From Flavobacterium collinsii (GTDB lineage: Bacteria > Bacteroidota > Bacteroidia > Flavobacteriales > Flavobacteriaceae): a DNA stretch of 64,000 nucleotides. Each line of letters opens with the position of its first letter. Position 1 is the stretch's first letter. The notes under the pieces are model-generated. The model searched no databases, was not told the DNA's origin, and saw nothing but the letters and a program-made list of their open reading frames with translations. The DNA is taken from positions 1-64,000 of the forward strand of contig NZ_CADCST010000071.1 of NCBI RefSeq assembly GCF_902804485.1. The letters are read 5' to 3'. A program made the position numbers and the translations under genes. Positions 1-5,955 of the stretch are shown here, piece after piece.

Positions 1-441
1 CGACTGAAAAAATTTAGGAGTCGCTTCAATCAATAATGCTATTCCTTCCTGAGTAGATTCATTTGCATTGTTTCCGATCCAAAATTTAATAAAATCCTCA
101 TTATTGTATTCTATCAAGCCAAAAGCAGGATCGGAAATATAGTAAGTCTTTTTTTTAATTTTATAGAGTACTACATAGTGATTTTTGTTCCAGTGCAGAA
201 CACAAGGCAATGGAGCCTCTTCTAGTCTTTCCAGATTTAATTTTACACCTAAAGTTCTAAAACCAATTTTCTCTGCCGCATCACTCAAAAAAAGCAAGTT
301 ACTTCCTTCACGAGTTGTTTCGCTGATGTCTCTCAACTCCTGGATGTTGATCGTTTTACCGTAATGTTTCGCTATTATTTTTAAACATGTTGGGCCACAA
401 TCTTTATAATCGGCCTGCTTATAATTGGTGAATTTTTTCAA
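1..441 (-). CDS. C39-peptidase bacteriocin/peptide ABC exporter, N-terminal part
   Basis: Partial gene that runs off the left edge; 147 codons are visible. It starts at a TTG (439-441), because an in-frame TAA lies 6 bases upstream and no ATG is available. The visible part is a peptidase C39 domain: N-terminal QADYKDCGPTCL block (Gln9, Asp15, catalytic Cys16), then the LHWNKNHYVVL histidine block and the SDPAFG aspartate block. C39 domains cut leader peptides after a double glycine and are normally fused to an ABC transporter, which should lie outside the window. The neighbours are GG-leader peptide genes, which are plausible substrates. Family assignment is firm; fusion to a transporter is inferred. 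Confidence 0.85.
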   Translation of the reverse strand, partial: MKKFTNYKQADYKDCGPTCLKIIAKHYGKTINIQELRDISETTREGSNLLFLSDAAEKIGFRTLGVKLNLERLEEAPLPCVLHWNKNHYVVLYKIKKKTYYISDPAFGLIEYNNEDFIKFWIGNNANESTQEGIALLIEATPKFFQS

Positions 442-940: not shown

Positions 941-968
941 AACAGAGAAGAAATTAATCTTCTCTGTT
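941..968 (-). terminator. Rho-independent terminator after the cysteine-rich precursor
   Basis: Perfect 11-bp stem AACAGAGAAGA / TCTTCTCTGTT with a 6-base loop. On the minus strand it is followed by a T-run (positions 940-934), so it ends leftward transcripts coming from the VKOR fusion and the precursor gene. It separates these from the C39 exporter. Confidence 0.8.
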
Positions 969-1316: not shown

Positions 1317-1514
1317 CTACAAACAATCCGGAAGTACTGCCGGTATTGTACCATTTGAACAAAACGAATCACACGCTACAAGAGTTGTCGAGCCTTTACC
1401 CGGGCAAACACAACATTTCTTTGGCGAATTAATCGGTTGGCCTCCCACCATACCTTTTTGCTCGTAAGCACTTAGCTTTTGAGCACCTTCTAAGTTTAAA
1501 ATAATTTTTAACAT
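1317..1514 (-). CDS. GG-leader precursor peptide with six-cysteine core
   Basis: 65-residue peptide. Residues 1-25 form a double-glycine leader (NLEGAQKLSAYEQKGMVGG), with GG at 24-25 as the expected C39 cleavage site. The predicted 40-residue core has six cysteines (34, 35, 37, 48, 52, 64) and a PGKGST stretch, suggesting up to three disulfides. It lies 85 bases downstream of the VKOR/thioredoxin fusion on the same strand and ends before the terminator at 941-968. Leader features match the flavobacterial bacteriocin-type family; target, activity and actual disulfides are unknown. A plus-strand ORF over the same bases is a shadow. Confidence 0.75.
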   Translation of the reverse strand: MLKIILNLEGAQKLSAYEQKGMVGGQPINSPKKCCVCPGKGSTTLVACDSFCSNGTIPAVLPDCL

Positions 1515-1599: not shown

Positions 1600-3162
1600 T
1601 CACGCCGTTTTTTCCAAAACAATCGTTTCTTTCTCTTCAATATAATCGTTCAGAAAATATTTTAGTTCACCCAGTTCATATTCTGCCGGAAAAACTTTAT
1701 CGTTCACAATCTTAACAGGTGTATAATTAAAATCATTTTTAGAACACCATTCATATTGTTTGTTTATTTCCTGGCTTATCATCATACTTACGGAATCGAC
1801 ATGCCATTTTTTCAACCATTTTTTAAGACTCATATTTTTAATATGCCAGTCTGAGATAGCTTCAACTGTTTTTCCCGGTGTAGATCTGTTTATTGTTAAA
1901 AGTCTTTCGACAACCGCTTTATATGGATTTTCGATATTTTCCGGGTTCACGTTGAACAATACATTCAGATATATTTTATCCGGAAACCTCAACACTAAAT
2001 CAAATGCTTCCTGAAATGTTTTATGACAATGTGCACAACTAGGACTAATAATTACTGATAATCTAACGGCCGCATTTCTATTTCCAAAATTCAATCCTCT
2101 TAAGTCGTCAAGTCCATTTATGTGAGGTACTTTTTTAGACAAGAAATTCAATAAAGAATAATTTCTTTTAAACTTCTTCATCTCCTTAAGCGAGTTTTCA
2201 GTTCCCAAAACATTAGTTATAATTGTTTTCAAAACCATCCAAATAGGAACTAAAAGTACCAGTGAGAACACGAATGGAAAGATTTCAGCAAAACTAAAAC
2301 TCAACGTAAACAGATCTGAAGCAAACCATATAACACTTTGTACAAAAATCAAAGAAGACACCATTAAACACATTACACACCATCTTTGAATCTCAAATTT
2401 TTGAATCCAAATCGAGGATACTATAACCGGTATGGCCAGTAAGCTTAAAAAACCAACAAAAATTGATGACTCTACTGGTTTAACCAAAATTGCAATCAAG
2501 CTGGCTCCAAAGAACATTAATGGCAGGTCTGGAAAGCTAATCCATTTACTTTCATTTCCTTCCTTGTTATTGAGAACAGAACTACAGGAAGAGTTTGAAC
2601 TCAAATTGCAAAGTTTCGAGACAACACTATTCTTGAATCCTAATTTTTCCTGAACAATAAAAACACTTACAATAAACCCTAAAATTGATGTCACTAAAAA
2701 AACAACACTAAATAAACTGTAAGTATTATAAAAAAATGACAATCCAACTAGCAATAAAAGTGGCAAACCATATTTCAACCAACTGAATTCAACTTTTAAA
2801 TTTTCTTTTGCAACAACATTGTTTGGTTCGATTGCAACGATAACTCCATTCCAGTCTAATAAAAACTTTTCATACGCCATTTTATGACTTCCTTTTTTCA
2901 CTGTATTGATACGAACAAAATTTTTTGCCTTTTCAACCAATATTAACTCTTCTTTGAAATAAGCCAAAAAATTTGAAGGCAAATCTACTATTTGCTCTTT
3001 CGGAACTCTTATCGCAGCATTCTCTACAGACAGTAAATCCAGAGAATCTGTTATCGCAAATAAACTAGGATAATTTGGATGAGAAAGAAACAAATCTTTA
3101 AACTCATTTTTAATCTCCGAGTACTTGTTTATTTGTAGAAATTTTTGGACAAGTTTTAACAT
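1600..3162 (-). CDS. Pseudo-C39 / vitamin K epoxide reductase / thioredoxin fusion
   Basis: 520-residue membrane protein. Residues 1-115 resemble a C39-type fold (HPNYPSLFAITDSL block) but lack the catalytic cysteine. Residues 130-310 are membrane segments with VKOR cysteines: Cys185, Cys193 and the WCVMC motif (262, 265). Residues 365-520 are a thioredoxin-like domain with CAHC (376, 379). VKOR-Trx fusions make disulfides in exported proteins and recycle electrons to quinone. Next to a six-cysteine precursor and a C39 exporter, its job is probably oxidative folding of exported peptides; the degenerate C39 domain may bind GG leaders. Domain calls are firm, substrate inferred. Confidence 0.85.
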   Translation of the reverse strand: MLKLVQKFLQINKYSEIKNEFKDLFLSHPNYPSLFAITDSLDLLSVENAAIRVPKEQIVDLPSNFLAYFKEELILVEKAKNFVRINTVKKGSHKMAYEKFLLDWNGVIVAIEPNNVVAKENLKVEFSWLKYGLPLLLLVGLSFFYNTYSLFSVVFLVTSILGFIVSVFIVQEKLGFKNSVVSKLCNLSSNSSCSSVLNNKEGNESKWISFPDLPLMFFGASLIAILVKPVESSIFVGFLSLLAIPVIVSSIWIQKFEIQRWCVMCLMVSSLIFVQSVIWFASDLFTLSFSFAEIFPFVFSLVLLVPIWMVLKTIITNVLGTENSLKEMKKFKRNYSLLNFLSKKVPHINGLDDLRGLNFGNRNAAVRLSVIISPSCAHCHKTFQEAFDLVLRFPDKIYLNVLFNVNPENIENPYKAVVERLLTINRSTPGKTVEAISDWHIKNMSLKKWLKKWHVDSVSMMISQEINKQYEWCSKNDFNYTPVKIVNDKVFPAEYELGELKYFLNDYIEEKETIVLEKTA

Positions 3163-3385
3163 CTTTTCGAGTCTTTAAAATCATAATTACACTGCAAATA
3201 TTGTTGTTTTTATTGAGAAAAAAACGCTAGTAGTACACATTTTATTAATTATACTACATACAATTTATAAATTATATCAGTCTGAATAAAACAAACAAGT
3301 CCTTTATTATCAATACATTAAACAAAAAATGCTTTGTCAAAAACCCAAAAAACCCCATTCTCGATTAAGCGTTTTCCTTTTTGTC

Positions 3386-3393
3386 TAGTTTTG
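3386..3393 (+). promoter_or_regulatory. -7 box of the five-peptide array
   Basis: TAGTTTTG matches TAnnTTTG and lies 30 bases before the first peptide ATG. No good -33 TTG is seen at the usual distance, so an activator may be needed. Confidence 0.45.
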
Positions 3394-3422: not shown

Positions 3423-3560
3423 ATGACAAATCAAGCACAAAAATTCGAAGATTTTCAATTAGAAAAACTATCCAATAAAGAGCAAAAAACTATTCAGGGA
3501 GGAGATGAATCTAATGTTCTTAGTGACACAATTAGAGGGAATGGAAAAGGGTCTAATTAA
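3423..3560 (+). CDS. GG-leader peptide 1 of 5, core DTIRGNGKGSN
   Basis: 45-residue peptide, below usual gene-caller cut-offs. Leader 1-27: KFEDFQLEKLSNKEQKTIQGG with GG at 26-27. Core of 18 residues, DESNVLS followed by the shared DTIRGNGKGSN tail. First gene of a head-to-tail array, 18 bases before peptide 2. The leader fits C39 processing. No cysteine, so no lanthionine or disulfide is possible. This copy has Ser before DTIRGN where the other four have Gly. Coding is supported by conservation of leader, GG position and core in all five copies; function is unknown (antimicrobial or signal). Confidence 0.85.
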   Translation: MTNQAQKFEDFQLEKLSNKEQKTIQGGDESNVLSDTIRGNGKGSN

Positions 3561-3578
3561 TAAATTAAATCTAACAAA

Positions 3579-3719
3579 ATGGCAAATAAAAAATTAAATA
3601 TCGAAGATTTTACAAATAACACTCTTTCAAAAAAAGAACAAAAAACTGTTAGAGGAGGAGGAGACGAATCTTGTACTCCTGGTGACACAATCAGAGGAAA
3701 TGGTAAAGGATCTAATTAA
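3579..3719 (+). CDS. GG-leader peptide 2 of 5, GDTIRGNGKGSN core
   Basis: 46-residue peptide. Leader KKLNIEDFTNNTLSKKEQ ... TVRGG with GG at 26-27, followed by a third Gly. The rest of the product is GDESCTP plus GDTIRGNGKGSN and carries the only core cysteine of the array (Cys32). Gap of 20 bases to peptide 3. Differences from the neighbours are concentrated between the GG and the GDTIRGN block, as expected if leader and tail are both under selection. Confidence 0.85.
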   Translation: MANKKLNIEDFTNNTLSKKEQKTVRGGGDESCTPGDTIRGNGKGSN

Positions 3720-3739
3720 TCATTAAAAATCTCATAAAA

Positions 3740-3901
3740 ATGGAAACTAAAAAATTAAATATCGAAGATTTCAAAAGTAATACACTTTCAAAAAAAGAAC
3801 AGAAAACTGTTCATGGAGGGGATGAACCTAATATTCCCGAAGACATAATTACTGGTATTGCTGGTGATACAATTAGAGGAAATGGTAAAGGATCTAATTA
3901 A
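3740..3901 (+). CDS. GG-leader peptide 3 of 5, longest linker
   Basis: 53-residue peptide. Leader nearly identical to peptide 2 (METKKLNIEDFKSNTLSKKEQ), GG at 26-27. Core of 26 residues: DEPNIPEDIITGIA then GDTIRGNGKGSN. The linker is eight residues longer than in peptide 1, showing that spacing between the cleavage site and the conserved tail varies while the tail does not. Same strand and array as its neighbours, 20 bases before peptide 4. Confidence 0.85.
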   Translation: METKKLNIEDFKSNTLSKKEQKTVHGGDEPNIPEDIITGIAGDTIRGNGKGSN

Positions 3902-3921
3902 CCTTTAAGAATCCGGTAAAA

Positions 3922-4059
3922 ATGAAAAACAAAAAATTAAATTTAGACGATTTTACGAGCACTGCACTTTCAGAAAAAGAACAAAAAACTATTCAAGGAG
4001 GTGATGGCGACACAATCAGAGGAAATGGTAAAGGATCTACACAACCAATAAATATTTAA
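3922..4059 (+). CDS. GG-leader peptide 4 of 5, short linker with C-terminal extension
   Basis: 45-residue peptide. Leader MKNKKLNLDDFTSTALSEKEQ with GG at 26-27, then only Asp before GDTIRGNGKGS. The tail is extended by TQPINI, so the conserved block need not be C-terminal. Three bases separate its stop from the ATG of peptide 5, suggesting translational coupling. Confidence 0.85.
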   Translation: MKNKKLNLDDFTSTALSEKEQKTIQGGDGDTIRGNGKGSTQPINI

Positions 4060-4062
4060 AAA

Positions 4063-4197
4063 ATGAAAACTAAAAAAATGGAATTAGAAAATTTTGGAAA
4101 CGAAAAATTATCAAAAAAAGAGCAACAAACAATTTGTGGAGGTGACGGTGACACCATCAGAGGAAATGGTAAAGGAAGTAACGCTGAGAATCCTTGA
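4063..4197 (+). CDS. GG-leader peptide 5 of 5, divergent leader
   Basis: 44-residue peptide, the most divergent leader of the set (MKTKKMELENFGNEKLSKKEQ, Cys25 just before GG at 26-27). Core D-GDTIRGNGKGSN with an AENP extension. Its stop is 12 bases from the stop of the convergent TPR-AraC gene, with no room for a normal terminator between them, so array transcripts may run antisense into the regulator gene. Confidence 0.85.
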   Translation: MKTKKMELENFGNEKLSKKEQQTICGGDGDTIRGNGKGSNAENP

Positions 4198-4209: not shown

Positions 4210-5955
4210 CTAGATATTATTCGCAAACTGAGCTGGAGACACTCCAGTTCTTTTGCGAAATGATTTAGCAAAAGACACTGCGTTTTTAAAGCCTACACTT
4301 TCTGCAATTGCCTGAGTTGAATATTTGCGGTACATATGATTCGTAATCATTTCATTAATGACGTAATTAATTTTCAACTCATTTGAGTATTCTCCAAAAG
4401 ATTTACCAAATCGCTTGTTTACAACATAAGATAAATAAGTGGTATTGGTTTTTATCTTCTTAGCCACATAAGGTAAAGTAAAATCGGCATGTAAATATTC
4501 CTGTTTACTTTCTAAGGCCAACAATTTTTCTACGATTTTGTTCTCTTTTGCCTCATCAATACTTAAATTGACATTCTCTTTCTTAAGTTGTACTTCTTCA
4601 GAGTCAAGAACAGTCTCCCGTTCTGGTTCCGGTTCATTTTTCTTCTCTAAGTTAGCTTTGAATTCTTCTATTAAAGCATTCATTTTTTTATGCGCTTTAT
4701 TCTTATCCCGTATGTTCTTTATCAGCAAAAAGACAATCCCTATAAACAAAACAACATAAAATACTTTCAGCGCTTTGTTTAGAAAAACATCATACTTATA
4801 TTTCTCCTGAATGGTAATCATCTCGTTGGTCAGATCTCCTACTCCAAGTTTATAATTTACCTCTAAAACCTCATCATTTAATTTTGATTCCGATTTTTCA
4901 TAATTATCCAGGTAAATTTTTGAATGCTTATAAGCCAGTTCAGGCTCTTTACGTATGTTGTAAATTTTTGCCTGATAGTAATTGGACTTCAAATTGTCAA
5001 CCTGATTCGTTTTCGTTATATCGCCAATCGAGTCTGATTTTTTAAAAAATACCAGTGCTTTATCATACTTCTTAATATTATAATATAAGTCACCCAAGTT
5101 ATAATTAGTGGTACATAAAATATCGAGCATACTGTTTTGATTGGCCAGATAAATTATATCATAATAGGTTTTCTCAGCATCTTTGTACTCTTTTAGTTCA
5201 TTATAAATGTTCCCTAAACTTAATTTTGCTACAATTTTATTATCGGGGAAGTTCTGAGAATAACTAATCGTTTTTTGATAAAAATATTTGGCAGAATCAA
5301 GTAAAACCTTCTTTTTAGGATCTTTCATATAAAAGCTTTCATATGATCCTGCTAAGCTAAGATTAATGTTACTCTTATTATTTAGATATTGCTGCTTGTT
5401 ATAAACACTTTGATTCTTATCAACAAATTCATTAAGACTCCTCAAATCCTTTATCGCCAAACGATAATTACCTACAGCAACATTTATAGACGCGATATTA
5501 CTCTTAAATTTTACAATTTGAATAATATCATCAATTTTTATAGAAAGCTTTATGCCTTGCTGATAATTTTCGATTGCGTCGCTATAGTTCTCTCTTTTCC
5601 ATTCTGATAGTCCGGCATAATTATACAAATAAGACCTAAGCTGTATTTTTTCCTGACCATCCGGTATTTTATCTAAGAATTTTAATGCTAACTGATATTT
5701 CTCTTTAGATTTTGCTGTATTTCCTTTTAACTGACTCAAATAAGACAATGCTGCATTTGCAAAAGCCAAATGCTTATTATTATTGGATCTCGCCAGCTGA
5801 TTGGCGTATACGATCGCACTGTCAACATTGGCATTTGCCGTTAGTCGAATTTTGTCTTGCAAGATTAAGTACTCTTGTTCTGTAAAAACCCTTTTCTCTT
5901 GAGAAACAGCAATATTTAGAACAAAAAAGAGTATAAAAGAGATGATCAGCCTCAT
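4210..5955 (-). CDS. TPR-transmembrane-AraC regulator
   Basis: 581 residues. Signal-like N terminus (RLIISFILFFVLNIAVSQ), then TPR-type helical repeats to about residue 385, one membrane segment (about 394-412, VFYVVLFIGIVFLLI), a charged linker, and a C-terminal AraC-type double helix-turn-helix (about 480-581, ending FRKRTGVSPAQFANNI). Topology puts the TPRs in the periplasm and the DNA-binding part in the cytosol, a Bacteroidota-specific architecture. It converges on the peptide array, so it may sense an exported peptide or control the array; that link is positional inference only. Confidence 0.85.
   Translation of the reverse strand: MRLIISFILFFVLNIAVSQEKRVFTEQEYLILQDKIRLTANANVDSAIVYANQLARSNNNKHLAFANAALSYLSQLKGNTAKSKEKYQLALKFLDKIPDGQEKIQLRSYLYNYAGLSEWKRENYSDAIENYQQGIKLSIKIDDIIQIVKFKSNIASINVAVGNYRLAIKDLRSLNEFVDKNQSVYNKQQYLNNKSNINLSLAGSYESFYMKDPKKKVLLDSAKYFYQKTISYSQNFPDNKIVAKLSLGNIYNELKEYKDAEKTYYDIIYLANQNSMLDILCTTNYNLGDLYYNIKKYDKALVFFKKSDSIGDITKTNQVDNLKSNYYQAKIYNIRKEPELAYKHSKIYLDNYEKSESKLNDEVLEVNYKLGVGDLTNEMITIQEKYKYDVFLNKALKVFYVVLFIGIVFLLIKNIRDKNKAHKKMNALIEEFKANLEKKNEPEPERETVLDSEEVQLKKENVNLSIDEAKENKIVEKLLALESKQEYLHADFTLPYVAKKIKTNTTYLSYVVNKRFGKSFGEYSNELKINYVINEMITNHMYRKYSTQAIAESVGFKNAVSFAKSFRKRTGVSPAQFANNI

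Follow-up and report, generated by a model that had tools for sequence, protein, structure and literature searches.

A tandem array of GG-leader mini-genes beside a TPR–AraC regulator in Flavobacterium: a likely peptide signal–receptor cassette

We analysed a 64,000-nucleotide stretch of the Flavobacterium collinsii genome (contig NZ_CADCST010000071.1, positions 1 to 64,000; hereafter the window), in which five mini-genes encoding short peptides with a Gly-Gly (GG) leader lie in tandem beside a gene for a membrane regulator with TPR and AraC-type parts. The mini-genes and the regulator are arranged as follows.

3423..3560, + strand: GG-leader mini-gene 1, 45 aa; core codons 3525-3554
3579..3719, + strand: GG-leader mini-gene 2, 46 aa; core codons 3684-3713
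3740..3901, + strand: GG-leader mini-gene 3, 53 aa; core codons 3866-3895
3922..4059, + strand: GG-leader mini-gene 4, 45 aa; core codons 4009-4038; C-terminal extension
4063..4197, + strand: GG-leader mini-gene 5, 44 aa; core codons 4150-4179; C-terminal extension
4210..5955, − strand: membrane AraC-type regulator, putative pheromone receptor (Pfam TPR and HTH_18)
4771..5898, − strand: predicted periplasmic sensor of the regulator, residues 20-395, fast-evolving (from entropy and covariation with the core)
4213..4575, − strand: nearly invariant helix-turn-helix (HTH) part of the regulator, residues 461-581 (from entropy)

A first, sequence-only reading of this DNA had described five intact tandem open reading frames (ORFs) with Gly-Gly at residues 26-27 and a shared DTIRGNGKGS block, here called the core. 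All five ORFs were recovered at 44-53 aa, each with an ATG start codon, with Gly-Gly at that position and with an identical core. The C-terminal extensions reported for two copies belong to copies 4 and 5, and copy 2 is, as described, the only one with a cysteine after the GG; copy 5 has a cysteine in its leader (TICGG), and copy 2 has GGG. The linker between GG and core is variable, as that reading had it, but its range of 1-15 residues was inexact, the measured lengths being 7, 8, 15, 2 and 2 for copies 1-5. Among the core codons of the five copies, 8 of 30 nucleotide sites vary with zero amino-acid changes. This synonymous-only variation, together with the bias of codon changes within arrays described below, rules out chance ORFs; on sequence grounds, the window array is more than that.

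The regulator consists of a signal-like N-terminal helix, a TPR solenoid (residues 26-370), a long helix with a hydrophobic membrane stretch, and an HTH_18 domain of the AraC type (residues 468-580; Pfam E 1.4e-12). Its sequence and its AlphaFold2 model (mean pLDDT 83.6, pTM 0.59) both place the membrane stretch between TPR and HTH, and the TPR domain is predicted to be periplasmic. The closest solved folds to the modelled sensor are TPR proteins of many kinds, including RapF, a phage Rap and NprR, which rank below APPBP2 and APC/C. Entropy per site is about 1 bit in the sensor vs 0.02-0.32 bit over residues 461-580, and the neighbouring acyl-CoA dehydrogenase (ACAD) protein of relatives is 96-99% identical to that of the window. 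The next best match to the regulator in its own genome has just 26% identity, which rules out a background adjacency to a common type of regulator.

A profile built from the five window peptides has matches (E<=0.01) in 100 of 398 genomes of the genus, its own included; the profile is narrow and its weakest matches may cover only the leader, so that the figure can serve as neither a maximum nor a minimum. A lack of homologues in related genomes, which the sequence-only reading had given as grounds for refutation, is at odds with these matches. From the 100 genomes, the 60 ranked high supplied a peptide-chosen set of loci, in which a script detected the array in 59, the remaining locus (L075) having a single variant peptide. 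Another 80 loci were collected via the regulator (labelled Flavobacterium, with a few Flavobacteriaceae or [Flexibacter]); mini-genes lie beside the regulator in 79 of them (78 by script, L109 by hand), and L173 is at a contig end. Removal of identical regulators from the 141 loci (window, 60 and 80) left 99 distinct loci, and in 98 of these the mini-genes adjoin the regulator. Arrays L078 and L090, on contigs without a regulator, were left out of later counts. F. johnsoniae strain CI04 (L133) is among the carriers of the cassette. In the usual arrangement, the array lies between the VKOR gene and the regulator(s); the exporter and Cys-rich GG peptides are beyond the VKOR gene, and the acyl-CoA dehydrogenase gene is beyond the regulator(s). 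By these sequence comparisons the window array is part of a genus-level system.

Outside the genus, among 299 genomes of the family (own and one more of the same genus included), a broad profile matched 12 besides the own genome, most of them mainly over the leader; one (G693) matched over positions 1-43 with E 0.008. In this family set, with at most 4 candidates per genome scored, the regulator was found at E<=1e-40 in its own genome only. Within the genus, L075 (9909-10112) is a deep variant in which Gly-Ser replaces Gly-Gly and whose regulator and VKOR protein are 50% and 43% identical, respectively.

The cores were compared as 10-residue segments, cut by a pattern that was written after the sequences had been seen and that omits two copies (one in L108 and one, masked, in L168). 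Over 60 arrays the consensus opens with [DENY]-P-x-[KR] and continues into a Gly-rich tail; the window's core, with DTIR, is the only one lacking Pro at position 2. Core identity is 0.84 within arrays vs 0.46 between arrays, and there are 80 distinct consensus cores among 96 arrays. Leader identity, over 45 arrays, is 0.69 within vs 0.51 between arrays, and linker and tail lengths vary among relatives. Several copies are present in 72 of the 96 loci, and 20 of these 72 arrays have fully uniform cores; the other 24 loci have one copy, at least L127 and L162 among them being cut by a contig end. When copies of an array are compared, single-base codon changes are non-synonymous in 132 of 908 cases for the core (0.15, with 0.76 for random changes) and in 1141 of 2270 cases for the leader (0.50, with 0.80 for random changes); counting multi-base codon changes too, the core has 331 of 1135. 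Codon pairs within an array are not independent of each other. The third-position pattern is thus not random, as a refutation of the sequence-only reading would have required, and the low non-synonymous share indicates that selection appears to keep the core sequence. In L044 (10438-10620), a single precursor ORF bears two copies of the core, which looks as though the core is what gets released.

We found that the core covaries with the sensor of the adjacent regulator. In 48 close locus pairs, at equal genomic distance, sensor distance is 0.047 where the cores match (n=21) vs 0.253 where they differ (n=21), and the HTH protein distance is 0.017 where that of the sensor is 0.25. These pairs are not mutually independent; in 26 disjoint pairs, independent apart from kinship, sensor distance is 0.055 for matching (n=16) vs 0.182 for differing cores (n=10), with p 0.002. 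Where cores differ in these pairs, synonymous sites of the regulator differ more as well, and thus the array and the regulator have likely been replaced together. This raises the question of whether neighbourhood and joint recombination could produce the covariation with no binding at all. We regard such an origin as very unlikely, as the start of the divergent VKOR gene is nearer to the array than the sensor is (260 vs 574 bp in the window) and yet the VKOR protein changes less (0.043 where cores match vs 0.058 where they differ). The low HTH distance also speaks against it, and linkage alone leaves unexplained why codon changes in the core look purifying within arrays.

Several observations weigh against reading the cassette as a pheromone with its receptor. 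Joint replacement, by linkage, explains part of the covariation and weakens it as proof of binding; it is, at the same time, what an exchange of matched signal and receptor predicts. The pair L050/L165 breaks the core–sensor rule, as does L166/L161 to a lesser degree. A test of covariation between the core and groove positions of the sensor gave no significant signal (p 0.15). Finally, 8 of the 72 multi-copy arrays are mixed, with cores unlike each other (identity <0.6). The two-copy arrays of L058, L091, L143 and L148 all combine one core, EPGKGSTGNG, with a dissimilar second one, EPGKDGKGGN, perhaps giving each receptor two words.

The region between the array and the divergent VKOR gene holds two candidate regulatory elements.

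3241-3253 and 3264-3276, + strand: putative operator, direct repeats TTTATNAATTATA, two 13-bp repeats with an offset of 23 bp
3386..3393, + strand: predicted array promoter, TAGTTTTG, located where the 57-locus alignment is conserved

This block is nearly invariant over 93 loci. The operator motif, written after inspection of the 57-locus alignment, occurs with <=1 mismatch per half in 92 of the 93 loci and in none at eight other offsets; in its own genome it occurs once, even with three mismatches permitted. The sequence TAGTTTTG at 3386..3393 fits TAnnTTTG, the consensus of the Bacteroidota -7 element. AraC-type regulators bind direct-repeat operators whose halves lie some two turns of the helix apart, close to the promoter that they regulate, and the putative operator found in nearly all loci, with its 23-bp offset, resembles this arrangement. 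A nearly invariant HTH and a nearly invariant site serving both promoters suggest autoregulation together with control of the VKOR and Cys-rich peptide side.

That side comprises the following features.

1600..3162, − strand: divergent gene with a VKOR domain and weak C39-like and thioredoxin-like matches below the Pfam cut-offs
1317..1514, − strand: gene for a Cys-rich GG-leader peptide, located after the VKOR gene; likely cargo of a bacteriocin-like kind
941..968, − strand: terminator-like hairpin after the VKOR and Cys-rich peptide genes, weak statistically (3 found vs 2.3 in shuffles)
1..441, − strand: C39 peptidase domain (PF03412, E 7e-36) of a gene cut by the contig start

The VKOR gene has the same position in relatives, and in many of these other Cys-rich GG-leader peptides, for example of the MLKKILNLE...GGIPECW type, are found beyond it; such peptides are likely bacteriocin-like cargo needing disulfides. 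The C39 domain is likely part of a peptide-export ATP-binding cassette (ABC) transporter. Base 1 of the window is base 1 of the contig, and the remainder of the exporter gene is outside this contig (the assembly has 205). Of the two neighbours named by the sequence-only reading, the TPR–AraC regulator directly adjoins the array, in convergent orientation, but the C39 domain is 3 kb off and its gene is truncated. ABC exporters are found on the VKOR side in the four relatives examined, one of them with a partial C39 domain.

A GG leader and C39 export are also typical of bacteriocins. The array peptides could accordingly be antimicrobials, that is, unmodified bacteriocins, with the TPR–AraC regulator answering another cue and the core diversity reflecting competition among relatives; the Cys-rich GG peptides next door would fit this. 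We consider it unlikely. The core is short, Gly-rich and hydrophilic, and it covaries with the regulator's sensor. Cores are mostly alike among the copies of an array, whereas one would expect a repertoire of weapons to diversify there. The ORFs of >=35 aa between the VKOR gene and the regulator are the five mini-genes and ORFs overlapping them, with no candidate immunity gene there, although one could sit elsewhere.

Eleven of the 96 loci have two or three tandem receptors. Exactly one peptide gene is present in 11 of these 11 loci vs 13 of the 85 single-receptor loci (at least 2 of the 13 being cut by contig ends); Fisher's test for receptor number against peptide number gives p 3e-8 with kinship ignored, and the 11 loci form two clades of a single-gene ACAD tree. 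In L077, L124, L135, L139 and L146, there are nine additional copies in which the sensor is retained (50-55% identity) and no HTH was seen. These copies could be decoys or co-receptors. Seven extra receptor copies in L076, L079, L085, L095, L131 and L138 have a diverged HTH (70-85%).

The sequence-only reading recognised no described family for these peptides. This stands for the five window peptides, which are under the cut-off of the TIGR04149 model (copies 2-5 score 13.0-23.8 bits against 25 bits, and copy 1 has no match), but not for their relatives, which carry the database names 'rSAM-modified peptide', 'TIGR04149 family rSAM-modified RiPP' and 'natural product precursor' (rSAM, radical S-adenosylmethionine; RiPP, ribosomally synthesized and post-translationally modified peptide). 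With E<=0.01, TIGR04149 matches 30 of 64 members (best 4e-6), and some named relatives may pass the cut-off. Taken at face value, these names and matches would make the mini-genes precursors of rSAM-modified RiPPs, which we regard as extremely unlikely. A radical-SAM CxxxCxxC motif was found within 9 kb of the array in just 2 of 136 locus records, in a search for the motif, not the family, among ORFs of >=120 aa, with flanks often shorter. The window copies score below the cut-off, and the label was rejected for them. Near the array of L049 and L108, an ORF has the radical-SAM-like motif CNLNCTYC; the two records look like one contig. Compared with the TIGR04149 or 'natural product precursor' GG peptides, the present ones have a leader that resembles the model, but they are receptor-linked, below the cut-off and with no regular linkage to a radical-SAM motif.

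The cassette works like both RRNPP and GG-leader pheromone systems, but lacks defining features of each. RRNPP systems (Rap-Phr, NprR-NprX, PlcR-PapR and Rgg-SHP) use short linear peptides, show pherotype diversity and have an XRE-type HTH or a phosphatase as output. In those of Bacillota, the group from which peptide quorum sensing is best known, the TPR receptor is encoded beside its propeptide, according to a survey that covered Firmicutes and viruses (PMC10075063). The likeness lies in the TPR fold, a generic one with Rap and NprR among the TPR proteins that it is similar to, and in the propeptide gene adjoining the receptor gene, as in 98 of our 99 distinct loci. In contrast, the RRNPP receptor is cytosolic, whereas the signal-like helix and membrane stretch here predict a periplasmic TPR domain; the output domain is an AraC-type HTH_18 rather than XRE or a phosphatase; and the precursor has a GG leader, with no peptide import needed in the proposed scheme. 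ComC-ComD, BlpC-BlpH and the inducers of class II bacteriocins are GG-leader pheromones with histidine kinases, C39 export and pherotypes. Our cassette shares the GG-leader precursor and the putative pherotypes and may have a comparable peptide and exporter unit, but one protein would both sense the peptide and bind DNA, the precursors are in tandem and the host is Gram-negative. No histidine kinase was found among 12 neighbours scanned with Pfam, one side being cut by the contig start. Going by its title, Dirix et al. 2004 reportedly predicts both signal peptides and bacteriocins with GG leaders among Gram-negative bacteria. That work is cited in PMC5524665, which in the parts consulted is not about this system. 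Bacteroidales RiPP clusters also combine GG peptides with genes for TPR proteins, and the authors of a study on them point out that in other bacteria TPR proteins regulate genes once a pheromone has bound, and that the mature peptides might signal (PMC10352776). The portions of that study consulted mention no fusion of TPR and AraC parts, no shared core in tandem, no operator and no covariation. In the open literature, without preprints and with few subscription papers, no title among the matches listed concerned a peptide pheromone and its receptor in Flavobacterium.

Taken together, the cassette is real, genus-wide and fast-diversifying, and a pheromone function is likely. The sequence-only reading had proposed either signalling or dose amplification; the comparative evidence supports signalling well, with a core that is stable within an array and differs from species to species, a covarying sensor and a dedicated conserved site, and dose amplification is possible but not needed, as 24 of 96 loci show one copy. 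On balance we favour the following reading: the GG-leader peptides encoded by the mini-genes are likely a secreted pheromone, specific to each species, and the neighbouring regulator is predicted to sense it through its TPR domain, with autoinduction and recombinational exchange. A C39 exporter would cleave after Gly-Gly and export the linear peptide, which would bind the periplasmic TPR solenoid of the regulator. From 3241-3276 the regulator would act on both divergent promoters, presumably as an activator, giving more pheromone (autoinduction) and expression of the VKOR and Cys-rich GG-peptide side. Multiple precursor copies would deliver the same word, and joint replacement of array and receptor gene by recombination would create new words. 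The same genes and site, and a predicted periplasmic sensor within reach of an exported peptide, would also suit a monitor of export, in which the peptide, as a ligand private to the cell, would report its own export across the inner membrane to the TPR domain and have no action between cells. This is improbable in our view; species-specific diversification of the core along with the sensor fits a shared signal better, and 72 of 96 loci make several copies.

We give an even chance to the further proposal that this pheromone cassette is a categorically new architecture in Bacteroidota, a one-component transmembrane pheromone receptor. In it, a periplasmic TPR solenoid, joined via one transmembrane helix to an AraC DNA-binding domain, would recognise linear GG-leader peptides on the outer side of the inner membrane, with dozens of species-specific pherotypes switched by array–receptor exchange and with HTH-less decoys or co-receptors in some lineages. 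The finding offers a testable function for peptides now filed as rSAM-modified natural products. If it is true, private peptide languages would exist in a large environmental genus, some of whose species are fish-associated, with about 80 readable words each paired with a receptor, and would provide a natural data set on the evolution of ligand–receptor specificity. It would be a private peptide language of Gram-negative bacteria in which word and ear are exchanged together.
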